This document shows positions 16,904 through 24,940 of a stretch of DNA of 64,000 bases, piece by piece. How positions within the stretch are numbered: the stretch's first letter is position 1; each line of letters opens with the position of its first letter. The notes under the pieces were generated by a model. The model saw nothing but the letters and a program-made list of their open reading frames with translations, was not told the DNA's origin and made no database searches. The DNA is from Halosolutus halophilus (GTDB lineage Archaea; Halobacteriota; Halobacteria; Halobacteriales; Natrialbaceae). A program made the translations under genes and the position numbers. The stretch lies in the NCBI RefSeq assembly GCF_022869805.1, contig NZ_CP094974.1, positions 2,976,001 through 3,040,000 on the forward strand, given 5' to 3'.

Positions 16904-17404
16904 ATGTTACGATCCTTCGACGGGATGGAACCGCAGGTCGCCGATTCCGCGTACGTCGACGAGGCCGCGGTCGTCATCGGCGACGTCGTGATCGAAGCCG
17001 ACGCCAGCGTCTGGCCGAACACCACGCTCCGGGGCGATCACGGGACGATCGTCGTCGGCGAAGGGGCGAACGTACAGGACAACGCCGTGATGCACGAGGG
17101 GGCCGAACTGGAGCCCTACGCCACGGTCGGGCACAGCGCGATCGTCCACGACGCGACCGTCGCCGAGCGTGCGCTGGTCGGGATGAACGCCGTCGTGCTC
17201 GACGGCGCTCACGTGGGCGAGAAAGCGGTCGTCGCCGCCGGGAGCGTCGTCACGGAGGGGACCGAGATCCACCCGTCGACGCTCGTCGCAGGCACGCCGG
17301 CCGAACCGAAGGCCGAGGTCGACGATCCGCGGCTCGAGACGACGGCCGAGCGATACGTGGCGCTGTCGACCCGGCACGAAGAGACGTCGGAGCGACTGGA
17401 CTGA
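16904..17404 (+). CDS. Gamma-class carbonic anhydrase family protein
   Basis: The 166-residue protein is a left-handed beta-helix with hexapeptide repeats. The family signatures are present: WPNTTLRGDHGTI, GEGANVQDNAVMHEG, and GHSAIVHDATV with the paired histidines of the zinc site, then LVGMNAVVLDGA and TLVAGTPAEPK near the C-terminus. Homologues reversibly hydrate CO2 or have unknown activity. The ATG at 16904 starts close to the first repeat. It is monocistronic with a short gap to the next gene. Confidence 0.93.
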   Translation: MLRSFDGMEPQVADSAYVDEAAVVIGDVVIEADASVWPNTTLRGDHGTIVVGEGANVQDNAVMHEGAELEPYATVGHSAIVHDATVAERALVGMNAVVLDGAHVGEKAVVAAGSVVTEGTEIHPSTLVAGTPAEPKAEVDDPRLETTAERYVALSTRHEETSERLD

Positions 17405-17483
17405 CGCTCGATCGGCCAACAGTGGCCCGCCAGCCCCGTCGACGAGGGAAACGCTGATACCTGCACCGCACCAATCGACGGCC

Positions 17484-17960
17484 ATGAGCGACACGCAGTG
17501 GACCGACCGGATCGTCGGTGCACGGATGACCGTCGATCAGGAGTTCACCTCGCGGATCCAGGGCTCACAGTTTTCGAGCCAGCAGTGGAGCCTGATCATG
17601 ACCGCGACCGAGTTCGAGATCGAACACCCGGACGATCCCGATCGGGCACGGATCGTCGCCAACACGGAGAAGGTCGAACAGGTCATCCCCGAACTCGACA
17701 ACATCCAGTCGGGAATGGGCGTGATGGGCGGCCAGCCCGGCGGTGCCGGATCGCGCTCGCGCTCGTCCGGTGGGGTCCTCGACTCGATCAAAGGGGCGCT
17801 CGGACTCGGTGGCGGTGACGACGGTGGGTCACACGAGGACCAGCGTCGGGCCGCCGAACAACTCACCCAGGAGTACGCCGACGAACTGCAGTCACACCTC
17901 GAGGCCAACGGGCGGTGGGAATCGGTCCGACGCACCGCAACCGACGGCGGAAAACAGTAG
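17484..17960 (+). CDS. DUF5799 family haloarchaeal protein
   Basis: The 158-residue protein has an N-terminal globular half containing FTSRIQGSQFSSQQWSLIMTA. A glycine/serine-rich linker (about residues 72-118, GGQPGGAGSRSRSSGG then GLGGGDDGG) and a C-terminal helix follow. I recognise it as the haloarchaeal DUF5799 family; no function is known. The ATG at 17484 has no good alternative. It lies 80 bp after the carbonic anhydrase gene. Confidence 0.8.
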   Translation: MSDTQWTDRIVGARMTVDQEFTSRIQGSQFSSQQWSLIMTATEFEIEHPDDPDRARIVANTEKVEQVIPELDNIQSGMGVMGGQPGGAGSRSRSSGGVLDSIKGALGLGGGDDGGSHEDQRRAAEQLTQEYADELQSHLEANGRWESVRRTATDGGKQ

Positions 17961-17992
17961 CGCTCCGAAAACCGTCGACGGCCGATCCCGGC

Positions 17993-18136
17993 TCAATCGC
18001 CGGCGTGGAACATCGTGTACTCGCTGGCCTCGTAGATGTTGATGAGTTCGGTCACGAGTTCGTCGTAGGACTCGTCATCGACGCGCAGTGCGTCCAACCG
18101 TTCGATCGTCTCTTCCTCGAGTTCGACGGAAGGCAT
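17993..18136 (-). CDS. Small DUF7557-like protein (antitoxin-like)
   Basis: A 47-residue protein reads MPSVELEEETIERLDALRV at its start and ends EYTMFHAGD. The beginning has the beta-strand-plus-helix look of ribbon-helix-helix proteins (SVELEEETIERLD), found in small haloarchaeal proteins often labelled antitoxin-like. I use the ATG at 18136; the longer frame to 18250 covers the promoter region and has no haloarchaeal character. No partner toxin gene is next to it. Confidence 0.75.
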   Translation of the reverse strand: MPSVELEEETIERLDALRVDDESYDELVTELINIYEASEYTMFHAGD

Positions 18137-18269
18137 GTGCGGTCGTTCGACGCCAAGGCGCAAAAACACACCGGGGATCGTCCCGCGGGTCGACCACCCG
18201 GCGGGACCGTCCCGGCGACGGCGGCCCCAAGCCACAGCACCTTTAGGCACGCTTCACTACCGTAGTGGT

Positions 18270-18560
18270 ATGACGAACGAAGTAGACACGACGACGATCT
18301 CGATCAGTTCCGACGACGGCTCGACCGACGACGTGACGGTCCCGAGTGGACTCGTCGACCTCGTCGCAGAGGGCGACCAGAGTACCGCCGAGACGATCGG
18401 TGACGTGACGCTGCTGTCGTTCGCCAGCCGCGCTCACCACCTCGTCCACCACGGCGAGGAGACAGACCCGGAACTCGAGGCCCAGGAGGAGCGCGTGATG
18501 GATCTGTTCGAGGAACGGTTCGGCGTCACCTTCGGCGAAGCGACCGGCCACCAGCACTGA
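18270..18560 (+). CDS. DUF7545-like small conserved haloarchaeal protein
   Basis: This 96-residue acidic protein contains FASRAHHLVHHGEETDPELEA and a C-terminal MDLFEERFGVTFGEATGHQH. The many histidines in the middle and at the end could bind a metal, but this is only suggestive. The start at ATG 18270 follows a TATA-like CCTTTAGG near 18239. The gene is divergent from the DUF7557-like gene. Confidence 0.75.
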   Translation: MTNEVDTTTISISSDDGSTDDVTVPSGLVDLVAEGDQSTAETIGDVTLLSFASRAHHLVHHGEETDPELEAQEERVMDLFEERFGVTFGEATGHQH

Positions 18561-18648: not shown

Positions 18649-21600
18649 TTACGTCGCCCCGACGCCGGAAACTCCGTCGAAGGGGTCGCCGAACGGATCA
18701 TCATCCGGTCCCTCATCCGGAGATTCGTCCGGACCTCCGCCGGGAGGTTCGTCGGGCGGCCCGTCACCCGCACCCGGTCCGTCGGCCCCGTCGCTGGGAC
18801 CGGTCTCCCCATTAGACTCATCGTTCGGTCCGGGCGGTGCGTCTTCTCCCGGTTCGTCGGCCGGCCCTGTTTCTCCAGTCCCGGCGTCTGACGGCGCTAT
18901 CTCTCCTGCAGTTGCGCTCTCGGCCCTGAGCACGTCCTCGTAATCGTACCCGGTCATGTCGATCTCCCAGACGAGTCGTTCGCCGTCGGACGCGGGCGTC
19001 CACTCGACGGTGAACGTGTTCTCTCCGGGCTGGAGTTCCTCGATCGGTTCCTGGACCGTCGTCCCCTCGACGAACTCGCTGTCGACGATCAGGGGCGCGT
19101 CGTTCGGGTTCTCGTAGCCGAAGGTCACGTCGATCCCGTCGTCGGTCGGCGTCGTCTCCACGACGGCGATCGCGGGCAGTTCCGGCCGGACCTCGAGGAT
19201 GCACTGCTCGGCGTCCGGGTTCGGGTAATCGATCTCGTCGGGGGTCGCGTCCGGCGAGGCGAAGCCGGTGATCGCGGCACCGAAGTCGCCCGACGGAACC
19301 TCGACGGTCGCCCCGTCTTCCGTCTCGGCGACGGCGAACTCCTCGCCGGTCTCGTAGGTGAGCGTCCCGTCGAACGGGGCCGACACGTCCTCGCCGACGG
19401 TAATCGCGTACTCGCCGACCGAATTGCCGTCCGCGCCCGACTCGTAGAAGCCAGTTGTGACGATAATCTCGTCGCCCTCCTCGAACGTCCCGGTCACCTC
19501 GGCGTTCGAACAGTCGAGGTACTCGACGGCGAACTCCTCGGCGACGGTGTACTCGATCGTCTCGGTCGCGAGGGGGTCCGCCTCGGGATCGACGGCGGGC
19601 ACGACAGCGACCTCGAGCGTCGCGTCGTCTTCGAGCGGCGGGTCGAGATCGACCGTCTCGCTCTCGATCGTTTCGTCCGGATCGAACGGACCTGCTTCGC
19701 CGATCTGCTGGCCGTCCTCGTCGACGACGGTAAGCGCGTACTCGACCGAGGCGTTCGCCGCTTCGACCGTCAGGTTCGTGCCGTCGCCCTCCTGATCCGC
19801 GACCGATAGCGTCGCTTCGGATTCGACTTCCTCGACCGTGTACTCGATCGTCTCGTTTGCCAGTTCCTCGTCGGCTTCGTCGACGACTTCGACGTCGAGC
19901 GTCGCGTCGTCTTCGAGCGGTGGGTCGAGATCGACCGTCTCGTTCTCGATCGGCTCCCCGGGAACGAACGGGTCCGTTTCGCCGATGCGCTGGTCGTCTT
20001 CGTCGGTCACCGTGAGGGCGTACTCGACCGAGGCGTTCGCCGCTTCGACCGTCAGGTTCGTGCCGTCGCCCGTCTGATTCTCGACCGTCAGCGACGCCTC
20101 CGGCGCTTCGTCGTCTCCGTCGGCCTCGTCCGCGATCGCGTACTCGATCGTCTCGTTCGCCAGTTCCTCGTCGTCCGGCCCGACGAGCGCGACGTCGACG
20201 GTCGTGTTCTCCTCGATCGGCGGATCGAGATCGAGAGACTCGTTCTCGATCGTCTCGTTCGGCTCGAACGTCTCGCTCTCGACGGTCTCGCCGTCGTACT
20301 CCGCGGCGATCGCGTACTCGACGGACGCGTTCGCCTCCTCGATCGTTAGCGTCTCGCCGTCGCCCGTCTGGTCGGCGACCGACAGCGTCCCTTCGGGTTC
20401 GGCCGCTTCGGCTTCCTCCTCTTCGTCAGCGCCGTCCCCGACCTCGACGATCGCCGTGTCGAGGACGGGCGATCCGCCCGAAGTCACGTACGGCTGATCC
20501 TCCTCGCCGTCGGTTTCGGCGTAGTCGAACGTCCGGTCGTCGTCCGTATCGTGGTGGACGGCGGCGACCAGCGGCTGGTCGTCCGCGATCGGTTCGTCGA
20601 GTTGGATCTCGACGTCCTCTTGCGTGCCGGCCTCGAGGTGCTCCGAGACGCCGAGGACGGCGTCGGGTTCGAGACCGACGTCGGCGCCGGCGTAGACCGC
20701 CACGAAGCCGCCCTCCGAGAGATCGACCTCGTCGACGACGACGCGCTCGCCGTCGCTCTCGCCGTCCTCGAAGGCGATCGACGCCGCACCTTCGAGTTCG
20801 TCGATCTCCTCGAGTTCCTGTTCCGTCTCGGTCTGCGCGAACTGTCGGAGTTCGGTCTCGTCGTCGACCCCCTCGTCGACGGCGAAGGCGGCCGTGTCGG
20901 ACGCCGTCTCCTGGCTCAGGATCTGTAGCTGCGTGACGCTGATCCGCTGGAACTGGACCGCACGGGCCGTCTCCTGGCAGGCGCTGCGGGCCGCGATCTG
21001 GATCTGCTCGATCGTCGCCTCCTGGTGCTGGACGAGCACGCCGCCGGCGGTCCCCTCGGCGAGTTTCTGCACCTGGACCACGTCGACGATCTGTTTCTGG
21101 ATCACCGCCCCTTCGCCGGCACCGCGTGCCGCGGCCTGGATCTGCTCGACCTCGACGATCTGGCGCTGAACCGCCGACTCGATCGACCCCTTCGCGGCCC
21201 CGAGCGCGGCGAACTGGATCTGCGTGATCGAAACCTCCTGTTGCTGGACGAGGACACCTTGAGAGGCCCCGTCGGCCGCCACCTGGATCTGCTCGACCGT
21301 CGCCTCCTGGCTCTGGGTGATCGACCCCTTCGCCGCGCCGAAGGACGCCTCCTGGATCTGCGTGATGGAGATCCGCTGGACCTGCCGGACGGTGACCCGC
21401 TGAACCTGTTTCAGCGGCCCGCTCCCGGCGCCGCGTGCCGCCGCCTGGGTCTGCTCGACCGAGACTTCCTGTTTCTGGACGATCGCGCCGGCCGCCGCGC
21501 CCGCGGCCGCCTTCTGGACCTGTTTGATCGTCACCCGCTGGCGCTGTTCGACGTCGACGTCTTGCTCCTGTTCGAGTGCCGCCCTCGTACTCCCGTCGAG

Positions 21601-22488
21601 CGCACCCGCGGACGCGCCGGCAGCAGCGTTCTGGACGTGCTCCAGGGAGACCCGCTGCCGTTGCTCGACCGTAATCTTCTGGTACTGCTCGAGCACGCCG
21701 TAGGCCGCCCCCTGGGCCGCCTCCTGAATCTTCGGCTGTTCCCGAACGTCTTTGTCGCCGGCCTCGCTCGCGGCCCCGGCGGCGGCACCGCGGGTCGCCA
21801 CCTGAATCTGCTCGACGGTCACGCGCTGTTTCTGGGCGATCGCACCGTGTGTCGCCCCCCACGTCGCGCTCTGCATCTGGCTCGCTTCGACCGTCTGGTA
21901 CTGGGCCAGCGCGCCGTCGGTGGCCCCGCCGACCGCCGACTGGACCTGCTCGACCTCGACGCGCTGTTGCTGGATCAGCGTGCCGTGGACTGCCCCTTTC
22001 GTCGCCTCCTGAACCTGCTCGACGGAGGCCTCCTGGTGCCGGGCGACCGACTCGCGCGCCCCCTCGATCGCGGCGGCCTCCTGCTCCTGGGTCACCTCGA
22101 CGCCCTGGGACTGGACGAGGTCGATCCCCTCCTGGACGCCGGTTTCGACGGCGTCTTCCTGTGCTTGCGAGAGCGACGCGGTCGCACTCCCGCCGTCGCT
22201 CGCCGACGCCGTCGTCGGTTCCATCGAGACCAGTCGCGGGTTCGTCGCCCCGGTCGCCGCCTCGCGATCAAGCGCGGTGGCCGCCGTACCGTCATCGGAC
22301 CCACTGACTGCCGACCCGCGATCGAACTGTGGTTCGCCGTCGGCGGCCGAAACGACTCCGCCCGTGTCGGCTCCCACGTCACCGACGTTCCCGGTCCCAC
22401 CACCGAGGAGCGGCAGGGCAGCCATGCTCGTCGCCATTCCGACGGCGACGAGGACCACCACTGCCGCCGTCGCGGACGATCGTGTCAT
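18649..22488 (-). CDS. Giant secreted protein with glutamine-rich repeats, DUF7282-like domain and acidic repeats
   Basis: The product is 1,279 residues if started at the ATG 22488 (MTRSSATAAVVVLVAVGM), giving a clear Sec-type signal peptide. The upstream extension to 22569 lacks this logic. Four regions follow. Region 1 is about 15-16 repeats of roughly 22 residues on the plan QxQxVTVEQIQxAARGAAAG (DNA 20.89-22.12 kb). Region 2 is a DUF7282-like beta domain (about 20.42-20.79 kb, FVAVYAGADVGLEPDAVLGV). Region 3 is three acidic repeats of about 85 residues (19.54-20.39 kb). Region 4 is a beta-rich domain and a Pro/Gly/Asp tail. No C-terminal anchor is visible. It is probably an extracellular structural or adhesive protein; function unknown. 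Confidence 0.88.
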   Translation of the reverse strand: MTRSSATAAVVVLVAVGMATSMAALPLLGGGTGNVGDVGADTGGVVSAADGEPQFDRGSAVSGSDDGTAATALDREAATGATNPRLVSMEPTTASASDGGSATASLSQAQEDAVETGVQEGIDLVQSQGVEVTQEQEAAAIEGARESVARHQEASVEQVQEATKGAVHGTLIQQQRVEVEQVQSAVGGATDGALAQYQTVEASQMQSATWGATHGAIAQKQRVTVEQIQVATRGAAAGAASEAGDKDVREQPKIQEAAQGAAYGVLEQYQKITVEQRQRVSLEHVQNAAAGASAGALDGSTRAALEQEQDVDVEQRQRVTIKQVQKAAAGAAAGAIVQKQEVSVEQTQAAARGAGSGPLKQVQRVTVRQVQRISITQIQEASFGAAKGSITQSQEATVEQIQVAADGASQGVLVQQQEVSITQIQFAALGAAKGSIESAVQRQIVEVEQIQAAARGAGEGAVIQKQIVDVVQVQKLAEGTAGGVLVQHQEATIEQIQIAARSACQETARAVQFQRISVTQLQILSQETASDTAAFAVDEGVDDETELRQFAQTETEQELEEIDELEGAASIAFEDGESDGERVVVDEVDLSEGGFVAVYAGADVGLEPDAVLGVSEHLEAGTQEDVEIQLDEPIADDQPLVAAVHHDTDDDRTFDYAETDGEEDQPYVTSGGSPVLDTAIVEVGDGADEEEEAEAAEPEGTLSVADQTGDGETLTIEEANASVEYAIAAEYDGETVESETFEPNETIENESLDLDPPIEENTTVDVALVGPDDEELANETIEYAIADEADGDDEAPEASLTVENQTGDGTNLTVEAANASVEYALTVTDEDDQRIGETDPFVPGEPIENETVDLDPPLEDDATLDVEVVDEADEELANETIEYTVEEVESEATLSVADQEGDGTNLTVEAANASVEYALTVVDEDGQQIGEAGPFDPDETIESETVDLDPPLEDDATLEVAVVPAVDPEADPLATETIEYTVAEEFAVEYLDCSNAEVTGTFEEGDEIIVTTGFYESGADGNSVGEYAITVGEDVSAPFDGTLTYETGEEFAVAETEDGATVEVPSGDFGAAITGFASPDATPDEIDYPNPDAEQCILEVRPELPAIAVVETTPTDDGIDVTFGYENPNDAPLIVDSEFVEGTTVQEPIEELQPGENTFTVEWTPASDGERLVWEIDMTGYDYEDVLRAESATAGEIAPSDAGTGETGPADEPGEDAPPGPNDESNGETGPSDGADGPGAGDGPPDEPPGGGPDESPDEGPDDDPFGDPFDGVSGVGAT
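19540..20390 (-). repeat. Three tandem ~85-residue acidic repeats within the giant secreted protein
   Basis: Each unit runs from an L(S/T)V-(A/E)-(D/N)-Q-x-GDG motif through EAANASVEYALTV and a stretch like ESETVDLDPPLEDDATL to ANETIEYTV. The two 3'-proximal units are nearly identical at the DNA level (for example around 19,610-19,760 and 19,880-20,080), which points to recent duplication. Acidic, Asn-X-Thr/Ser-rich units of this kind suit glycosylated extracellular beta-domains. Confidence 0.85.
20890..22120 (-). repeat. Array of ~15-16 glutamine-rich 22-residue repeats
   Basis: Units follow Q-x-Q-x-V-x-V-x-Q-I-Q-x-A-(A/S)-x-G-A-x-x-G-(A/V/S)-(L/I), for instance YQTVEASQMQSATWGATHGA and QQEVSITQIQFAALGAAKGS. 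Each unit alternates a probable beta-strand (VTVEQIQ) with a small-residue glycine/alanine segment. Some units carry a second copy of the strand only (VEQRQRVTIKQVQ). The DNA copies have diverged, so the array is old and kept by selection. Confidence 0.88.
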
Positions 22489-22912
22489 ACACCCTTCCCC
22501 CGTTTCGAACCCGTCCCTTCGCCCCGGGCCGCAGTCCCGGTCCGCGATCGAAACGTCGATCCTGTCCACCGATCTCCCCCACGTCGTACTGCCGTGCTAC
22601 TCGAACCCATAGCTCCCTCACGAGGGATCGAACGAGCGCATAAGGTCGCCGTCCGTTTCGGTTGCATCGCGGACACAATCGGACGTTACTGGGCGAAACG
22701 AATTCTTCCAACCGAGAAAGTCCCGTCCGAAGAAGGGGAAGCCGCGTTGCGCGACGCTACCGGACAGTCGCCGGAACCGACAGGTAGCCCGCTGTTTCGA
22801 ACAGATCGCGCGACGTGTACGAACCAGTTCGAACGCGTGAGAGCGATGCCTGTGATCGAAACGGGTGTCGTAAACCGAAGTATTGATCCGGGTATACGAT
22901 CGATCCGGCGGT
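22489..22912. other. Divergent promoter region between the giant secreted protein gene and bioY
   Basis: About 420 bp carry no convincing gene; frames here are arginine- and serine-rich. Promoters for both flanking genes must lie here. No riboswitch or obvious biotin operator was recognised. Confidence 0.5.
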
Positions 22913-23488
22913 ATGGAAACGGAACAGTCCGACGTCGATCTCGTGGGAGGCGAAACCGTCAGAGCCGTCGCTCGAGCCGCGTTACTTGCGGCGTTGATGG
23001 GCGCGGCCGCGTTCGTCTCGATCCCGATTTCGGCAGTCCCGGGGACGTTACAGACCTTGATCGTGTTTCTGGCCGCGCTCTATCTCGGCCCGTACTGGGG
23101 CGGGGCCTCGATGGTCCTCTACCTGGCGGTGGGAGCGATGGGTGCACCCGTCTTCTCCGGGTTCAGCGCCGGCCTCGGCGTGCTCGTCGGGCCAACTGCG
23201 GGGTTCCTCTGGACGTTCCCGCTCGGCGCCGTTATCGCTGGGTTCGTCATCCACCGCGGCGGCGACCTCCGCGACCCCGCGTCCGTCCCCCTGCCCGTCG
23301 TCGTCGCGGGGCTGGCGATCGCGACCGCGGTGATCTACGTCGCCGGCTTCGGCTGGTACGCCTGGGTCACCGACACGGCACTCGCCGAGGCGTTCGCGGT
23401 CGTCGCGGCGCCGCTGATCCCCGGCGATCTGCTCAAGATGGCCGCGGCGATCGCCATCATCCGAACCGGCCGCATCGACATCGGATGA
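22913..23488 (+). CDS. bioY: Biotin transporter BioY (ECF S-component)
   Basis: The 191-residue protein has six transmembrane helices and BioY signatures: AAFVSIPISAVPGTLQTLIVFLAAL, YWGGASMVLYLAVGAMGAPVFSG and GPTAGFLWTFPLGAVIAGF. BioY binds biotin and is driven by an ECF module. The ATG at 22913 is preferred over an upstream start at 22883. The genes for the ATPase and the T-component follow directly on the same strand, giving a bioYMN-type operon. Confidence 0.94.
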   Translation: METEQSDVDLVGGETVRAVARAALLAALMGAAAFVSIPISAVPGTLQTLIVFLAALYLGPYWGGASMVLYLAVGAMGAPVFSGFSAGLGVLVGPTAGFLWTFPLGAVIAGFVIHRGGDLRDPASVPLPVVVAGLAIATAVIYVAGFGWYAWVTDTALAEAFAVVAAPLIPGDLLKMAAAIAIIRTGRIDIG

Positions 23489-23513
23489 TCGTCCGGCCAC
23501 GCACCGAAGACGG

Positions 23514-24233
23514 ATGATCGAGTTTGACGCCGTCTCGTTCGGGTTCGAGGACGTGCCGGTCCTCGAGGACGTCTCCCTGACGATCGACGACGGCGAGTTC
23601 GTCGTGCTCGCGGGCGCGAACGGGAGCGGGAAGACCACCCTGTGCCGACACTGTAACGGCCTCCTCGAACCCGATTCGGGAACGGTCCGCGTCGACGGCA
23701 CGCCCGTCCAGGACGACCTGGTGGGCGCTCGCTCGACCGTCGGGATGGTCTTCCAGCACCCGCGGGACCAGTTCGTGGCGGCGACCGTCGGCTCCGACGT
23801 CGCCTTCGGCCCCGAGAACCTCGGCCTCCCGCGTGCAGAGATCGATAGACGGGTCGAAACCGCTCTCGACGCGGTCAATATGGGTGGCCGCGAGACCGAT
23901 CGGATCGACGCCCTCTCGGGCGGCGAGCAGTCCCGCGTGGCCATCGCGGGCGCGCTCGCGATGGACCCGTCCCACCTCGTCCTCGACGAACCGTTCACCG
24001 GGCTCGACGACCCCGCACGCCGATCCGTCCTCGATCGGCTCGCGTCGCTCTCGAACGACGGGACGGGGGTCGTCCTCGCGACCCACGACCTCCGCGACGT
24101 GGTCTCGCTGGCCGATCGCGTGATCGCCATGCGGGACGGCCGCGTCGTCGTGGACGGGACGCCCCCCGGAGCGCTCGACGAACTCGCCGACCTCCCGGTG
24201 CGGGTGCCACGCTCCCGGCGACACCACGAGTAG
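23514..24233 (+). CDS. ecfA: Energy-coupling factor ATPase of the biotin transporter
   Basis: The 239-residue ABC ATPase has Walker A GANGSGKTT at residues 34-42, Q-loop VFQHPRDQF, signature LSGGEQSRV, Walker B LVLDEPF and the switch ATHD. The FQHPRDQF form is typical of ECF-type (CbiO/BioM) ATPases. It lies between bioY and the T-component, 25 bp after the former and 2 bp before the latter, so it powers biotin uptake. Confidence 0.94.
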   Translation: MIEFDAVSFGFEDVPVLEDVSLTIDDGEFVVLAGANGSGKTTLCRHCNGLLEPDSGTVRVDGTPVQDDLVGARSTVGMVFQHPRDQFVAATVGSDVAFGPENLGLPRAEIDRRVETALDAVNMGGRETDRIDALSGGEQSRVAIAGALAMDPSHLVLDEPFTGLDDPARRSVLDRLASLSNDGTGVVLATHDLRDVVSLADRVIAMRDGRVVVDGTPPGALDELADLPVRVPRSRRHHE

Positions 24234-24235
24234 CG

Positions 24236-24940
24236 ATGCTTACGTACGACCCCGACGAAACGATCGCCCACCGGCTCGATCCCCGCTCCAAGCTCGCGGT
24301 TCAGATGGGATTCGCCGCGACGGCGCTGGCCCACACGAGTCCGCGCGCCCTTCTCGTTCTCTCCGTCGTGGCCGCGCTCCTCCTCGCGGCCGCGCGGGTC
24401 CCGCTGTGGCGGACGCTCGTCGCCTACCGCTTCGCGCTGGTGATTCTCGCGCTCGCCCCCATCGTCGCGGCGATGTCCCTCGGCGCGCCCTGGGTCGACG
24501 TCGACGCCGGGTTCGCGTCCGCTCGCGCGAGCTATCGCGTCCTGCTCGTCCTGCTCGTCAGCGCCGCCTACGTCCGATCGACGCCGGTTCGACACTCTCG
24601 CGCCGCGATCCAGCGCACGATCCCCGGCAAACCGGGTCAGCTACTCGGGATCGGCGTCGCGCTCGTCTTCCGATTCCTCCCGGTGCTCCGGGCCGACCTC
24701 CGGACGATTCAGGACGCCATGGCCGCCCGCCTCGGCACCGAACGGAGCGCCGTCGAGCGCGCCAGCACGATCGGCGTCCTCGGCCTCGAACGCGCGTTCG
24801 ACCGCGCCGATCGACTCTCCCTGGCGCTCCAGGCGCGCTGTTTCGCGTGGAACCCGACGCTCCCGGCGCTGTCGTTCGGCCGCCTCGATTACCCCGCGAT
24901 CGCGATCGGCGTCGTCCTCGCGCTCTCGGCGTTCCTGTAG
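24236..24940 (+). CDS. ecfT: Energy-coupling factor transmembrane protein (T-component)
   Basis: This 234-residue EcfT/BioN/CbiQ family protein starts LTYDPDETIAHRLDPRSKL, the conserved cytosolic lead-in, and has about five membrane helices. Near the end of the coupling region are two short Ala-Arg-Gly-like motifs, AAIQRTIPG and AMAARLGTERS, corresponding to the EcfT coupling helices. It is the last gene of the bioY-ecfA-ecfT operon. Confidence 0.93.
   Translation: MLTYDPDETIAHRLDPRSKLAVQMGFAATALAHTSPRALLVLSVVAALLLAAARVPLWRTLVAYRFALVILALAPIVAAMSLGAPWVDVDAGFASARASYRVLLVLLVSAAYVRSTPVRHSRAAIQRTIPGKPGQLLGIGVALVFRFLPVLRADLRTIQDAMAARLGTERSAVERASTIGVLGLERAFDRADRLSLALQARCFAWNPTLPALSFGRLDYPAIAIGVVLALSAFL

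Follow-up and report, generated by a model that had tools for sequence, protein, structure and literature searches.

The consensus of the curlin repeat is a 22-residue unit, Ser-X5-Gln-X4-Asn-X5-Gln. The curli protein CsgA and the repeat array described here have in common tandem units of similar length, fixed Gln residues and, as predicted for the array protein, export. The protein also carries a full DUF7282 domain (PF23951), a family itself of unknown function, and the repeats are not part of this domain. Our literature search found no paper on DUF7282 or on such repeats. Among haloarchaea, the biofilm matrix of Haloferax volcanii stains with both Congo red and thioflavin T, and no protein is proven to be the cause (PMC4180959). 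The present analysis concerns a gene of Halosolutus halophilus located in a window (the whole stretch of DNA analyzed) of 64,000 nucleotides. An earlier note on this window had proposed an apparently secreted protein with about 15-16 Gln-bearing repeats of 22 residues, akin to curli and perhaps folded as a beta-solenoid.

The coding sequence (18649..22488, minus strand, as are all features of the protein given below) starts with ATG and encodes 1279 amino acids; orthologous frames are open over the entire array in about 50 same-family genomes and in 46 named loci. The N-terminal hydrophobic segment detected by hydropathy (residues 4-30, 22399..22479) would be a Sec-type signal or an uncleaved membrane anchor. 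The motif VTSVVALPLLGGG found there recurs at the same place in many orthologues, and a hydrophobic stretch at the N-terminus was detected in 94 of 100 homologous frames. This segment is followed by (i) a variable acidic linker, defined by its composition and not alike between orthologues (residues 31-100, 22189..22398), (ii) an N-terminal capping helix, EDAVETGVQEGIDLVQSQGVEV, delimited by alignment conservation and helical in the AlphaFold2 model (residues 101-130, 22099..22188), and (iii) the array itself, located by scan and alignment (residues 131-540, 20869..22098). The DUF7282 domain lies C-terminal to the array (residues 569-681, 20446..20784; Pfam E = 1e-37, with 129 bits compared to a cut-off of 27) and is kept in 45 of the 46 named orthologues, which bears out the DUF7282-like domain mentioned in the earlier note. 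The same holds for its acidic, glycan-prone repeats: about three beta-sandwich-like acidic repeats of about 90-95 residues each, with 12 N-x-S/T sequons, occupy residues 690-985 (19534..20421), include a weak DUF7282-like stretch at 19840-20097 and have related segments in 43 of the 46 named orthologues. A two-cysteine domain and an Ig-like domain (residues 986-1190, 18919..19533) come next, with related segments in 38 and 42 of the 46 orthologues, respectively. The protein ends with a tail rich in Gly, Pro and Asp (residues 1191-1279, 18652..18918), defined by composition and hydropathy, in which no hydrophobic anchor was found by hydropathy. A C-terminal hydrophobic segment exceeds the threshold in four of the 100 homologous frames, most of which thus have no C-terminal anchor.

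Other frames and relatives show how the array is combined with various domains. The host genome encodes DUF7282 in two other frames and the array only in the 18649-22488 frame. A CARDB domain is found in the C-terminal part of three of the five orthologues that were scanned, a right-handed beta-helix takes the place of CARDB in one more distant relative, and Thr/Pro-rich linkers are fused to the array in some relatives. Since such partners are usual in exported proteins, they favour export. The array and its capping helix (20869-22188, minus strand) are near-neutral, with a net charge of -0.04 per residue compared to -0.23 to -0.32 for the later domains; such a low charge is odd for an exported haloarchaeal domain.

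A position-specific scan identified 16 units, starting at residues 131, 155, 178, 201, 224, 250, 281, 320, 343, 374, 397, 420, 446, 469, 492 and 517, so that the array is real and its previous count was right. Thirteen of these units score 32-47 bits, compared to 25 for the best of 200 shuffles of the same residues. It should be emphasized that the scan matrix was derived from units of the same protein and that the 13 high-scoring units include its source units; the independent proof is therefore the conservation in orthologues. The period is 23 residues, not the 22 previously given, with 1, 2, 3, 8 or 16 extra residues between some units. The +3 and +2 insertions, about one helical turn, are placed after position 16. 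The consensus, established from 415 distinct regular units (318 from the Natrialbaceae-type named family and 97 from others), reads as follows: Ser/Thr/Asp/Asn (or Glu) at position 0, Val/Ile/Ala at 1, Gln at 3, Ile/Val/Leu at 4, Gln at 5, Ala at 7-8, Gly at 10, Ala at 11-12, Gly at 14, Ala at 15, Leu/Ile/Val at 16, Gln at 18 and 20, and Val/Ala at 22. It thus combines two Q-x-Q pairs and a GxxxG motif, without any conserved Asn. Over these 415 units, Gly10 and Gly14 are about 97-100% fixed and the four Gln (3, 5, 18 and 20) 93-98%, in agreement with the fixed Gln reported before. Position 0 is Ser, Thr, Asp or Asn in 83% of the units and Lys or Arg in 1%. Within positions 1-17, the most variable sites are 6, 9, 13 and 17, then 2, and the hydrophobic residues of the unit are at 1, 4, 8, 11 and 15. 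Every unit follows one consensus, two unit types in alternation were not seen, and the two halves of the array have similar units.

Collinear orthologues, 54-97% identical, are present in most genera of Natrialbaceae. Of 36 same-family relatives, 28 carry an orthologue (E down to 1e-231), and 45 of the 46 named loci bear Natrialbaceae-type names (Natrinema, Natrialba, Natronorubrum, Haloterrigena, Halopiger and others). About a dozen same-family genomes are devoid of the protein altogether (G004, G008, G011, G013, G031, G034 and others). The profile search of archaeal genomes suggested in the earlier note revealed relatives in 88 of 293 genomes of the order, including four other families; among 295 genomes sampled from the phylum, relatives were found inside the order and none outside. 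In other families of Halobacteriales, the arrays are looser and comprise 4-23 units. The same unit shows 74% identity across species compared to 45% between different units of one protein. Each unit thus keeps its own identity across orthologues, indicating that the array is old and fixed. Its old age is also indicated by Tandem Repeats Finder, which did not detect, in the DNA of the array, any repeat with the period of the unit. As homologues keep the length of the unit and the positions of its Gln, this part of the earlier idea survives.

One other lineage harbors a sister repeat family with the motif NQNVNINVILNAALGAAQGAVQGAV (L114, L152, L153, L154, L155 and L156). These Asn-rich arrays have about 10-18 copies of units of 21, 25 or 26 residues, the additional 4-5 residues being placed after the second Gly, a position that would also fit a helical unit. 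Some distant short paralogues, including some of this sister family, have a twin-arginine signal. One protein of 227 residues (L147) is nearly all repeats behind a twin-arginine-like signal and would be a convenient small construct for structural studies.

The genes adjacent to the array gene encode a biotin ECF transporter and DUF proteins. A divergent bioY-ecfA-ecfT group (22883-24940, plus strand), encoding BioY, an ECF ATPase and a CbiQ-type permease, lies beside it; 44 of the 46 named loci share this gene order, which other families lack. The downstream neighbours DUF5799 and DUF7545 (17187-18560, plus strand) are kept in 41 and 43 of the 46 loci. As a gene order seen inside the family only is expected from common descent, a link of the array protein to biotin uptake was rejected. 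A viral link was rejected as well, since the array was not found in phage records and viral contigs; among plasmids, the only match was partial, to a Halobaculum plasmid sequence annotated as hypothetical.

The repeat had no match in Pfam, NCBIfam, PHROG or the PDB, and searching the PDB by sequence gave nothing for the full protein or for the alignment. No profile of HEAT, TPR, ARM or Sel1 in Pfam or NCBIfam matched it. A mammalian KH-domain protein from the PDB (E = 0.013 with an Asn-rich sister array) was rejected as a composition match. The kind of repeat is thus absent from the family libraries searched, in line with the earlier note, which had suggested a type not described in haloarchaea.

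Structure was predicted by AlphaFold2 on residues 101-540 with an alignment of 47 sequences (model 1). The first half (model residues 4-199) is all helical, with a pLDDT mostly of 75-95 and above 90 in several consensus units; in each unit, a helix of 16 residues is followed by a link of 7, without strands. The second half of this full-array model has a pLDDT near 20-30 and is not usable. Modelled alone, the second half gave an all-beta best model with a pLDDT of 47 and four sister models at 24-30, so that the predictions of the two array halves conflict. DSSP assigned no strands to the extended segment of the first-half model, and a true beta-alpha unit is therefore not supported by it. Foldseek searches with the first model returned no match below E 0.001; the best, weak matches were the designed helical-hairpin repeats DHR79 and DHR8 (E 0.08-0.3). 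Covariation pooled over units gave a helical signal with p = 0.0002 before controls. After subtraction of between-unit values (a control for variable sites), one of two measures reached about p 0.02, and the helical signal was gone when unit identity was fixed. As the variable sites are themselves helically spaced and the signal fades under controls, covariation is not strong evidence. Hydropathy periodicity in single halves was significant for neither helix nor strand.

We propose, with a probability of about 0.5, that this is a modular exported cell-surface protein of haloarchaea whose 16-unit array forms one elongated solenoid rod. The N-terminal hydrophobic segment would export or tether the protein; together with the partner domains, it points to a surface location. 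The array would fold into a single rod with the DUF7282 domain and the Ig-like acidic, probably glycosylated domains at its far end. Within each unit, residues 1-13/16 would form one helix with its N-cap at position 0, whose composition resembles that of helix N-caps and favours a helix. More generally, the N-cap residues, the variable stripe 2-6-9-13-17, the hydrophobic spacing and the +2/+3 insertions favour a helix over 1-16 and an extended segment over 17-22, and the helix of the first array half is predicted with the support of its model. Helices would pack on their neighbours via the invariant Gly10 and Gly14 and the Ala positions, the Gly face permitting close contact, and residues 17-22 (xQxQxV) would be an extended return stretch. 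With such a return, successive helices would probably be parallel and the Gln18 and Gln20 side chains stacked. If the unit is indeed helical, about 16 residues of helix would span 24 angstrom and the 7 residues of the return about 23 angstrom; this match likewise suggests parallel helices in register, so that both parallel packing and Gln stacking along the rod are deduced from geometry. In the envelope or matrix, the rod might be used as a stalk, as a scaffold or for adhesion; proteins of such an architecture usually act as stalks or adhesins.

The confident helices of the first half and the N-cap composition at position 0 also argue against the beta-solenoid of the earlier note, in which each unit would be a long strand (GALVQxQxVTVEQIQxA) followed by a Gly/Ala turn, with in-register Gln ladders forming an amyloid-like fibre that works like curli without kinship. 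The strict alternation L16-Q18-Q20-V22-V1-Q3-Q5 and the preference of insertions for +8 and +16, which preserve it, speak for such strands, although Ile/Val/Leu4 would face away from V22, V1, Q3 and Q5. The best model of the second half is all-beta as well, but its pLDDT is 47 and its four sister models are at 24-30. Since the exported domains of this organism are acidic, a near-neutral array rich in Gln, Ala and Gly (-0.04 compared to about -0.3 for most of the later domains) is a hint that its surfaces are buried or self-associate, and the Congo red- and thioflavin T-positive matrix of H. volcanii (PMC4180959) would suit a fibre, but the curlin repeat was not found. We consider this fold unlikely, albeit deserving attention; the evidence on it is split and leans toward helix, the first half being helical at high confidence and the beta prediction for the second half being of low confidence.

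Helices could instead pack antiparallel, as in HEAT- or TPR-like repeats, two units making one hairpin of a binding platform. A 16-residue helix with a 7-residue loop and the weak Foldseek similarity to DHR79 and DHR8 (E 0.08-0.3) are compatible with this arrangement. However, it appears improbable given that no Pfam helical-repeat family matches, that every unit has the same consensus instead of two alternating types, and that, in an uncontrolled signal, same-position pairs of adjacent units, 9-9′ and less so 6-6′ and 13-13′, couple more than mirrored pairs such as 6-13′. The low AlphaFold2 confidence across the second half would also fit a low-complexity Gln/Ala/Gly linker without fixed fold, acting as a flexible spacer; the near-absolute conservation of Gly and Gln, the unit order fixed across genera and the several consensus units with a pLDDT above 90 make this very improbable. 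Taken together, solenoids containing helices have a somewhat better than even chance, and the rod of the array is probably helical rather than curli-like.

This old repeat is strictly conserved and occurs widely within one archaeal order, yet is without model in the searched libraries; solving its structure might add a fold to the classes of solenoids. We tentatively suggest that the 23-residue Q-x-Q/GxxxG unit may represent an undescribed solenoid fold with Gln stacked along the rod, used by haloarchaea for surface fibres or stalks, with a fixed number of units in Natrialbaceae and, elsewhere, a variable number and an Asn-rich sister version. Fibres of the array, if they exist, would be candidates for the amyloid-stained matter in biofilms of haloarchaea (PMC4180959). 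Natrinema gari JCM 14663 has an orthologue, and the related strain N. gari J7-2 is reported to be editable (PMC10433800); the question therefore looks testable.

Compared to known systems, the array is not a member of the curli family, judging from its sequence. Its unit has 23 residues instead of 22, Gln at 3, 5, 18 and 20 in Q-x-Q pairs, a GxxxG motif and no conserved Asn, and it is mainly predicted helical. The curlin repeat PF07012 was found neither in the protein, nor in the array of a distant relative (E up to 10), nor in a genome-wide search whose Escherichia coli control was positive, so that the kinship to curli previously put forward is not retained. Like leucine-rich repeats and other alpha-beta solenoids, the array would be made of short units, each combining a helix with an extended segment and probably stacked in parallel; it differs from them by Gln, Gly and Ala instead of the Leu pattern, by the lack of a Pfam LRR match and by a model without strands. 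With HEAT-, TPR- and TALE-type solenoids and designed helical repeats, it shares a predicted helical tandem repeat and its best, insignificant Foldseek matches, but each of its units would have a single helix where theirs have two, and there was no significant structural or sequence match to them. Overall, secreted modular proteins with long solenoid-type repeats are familiar, whereas this unit is not.
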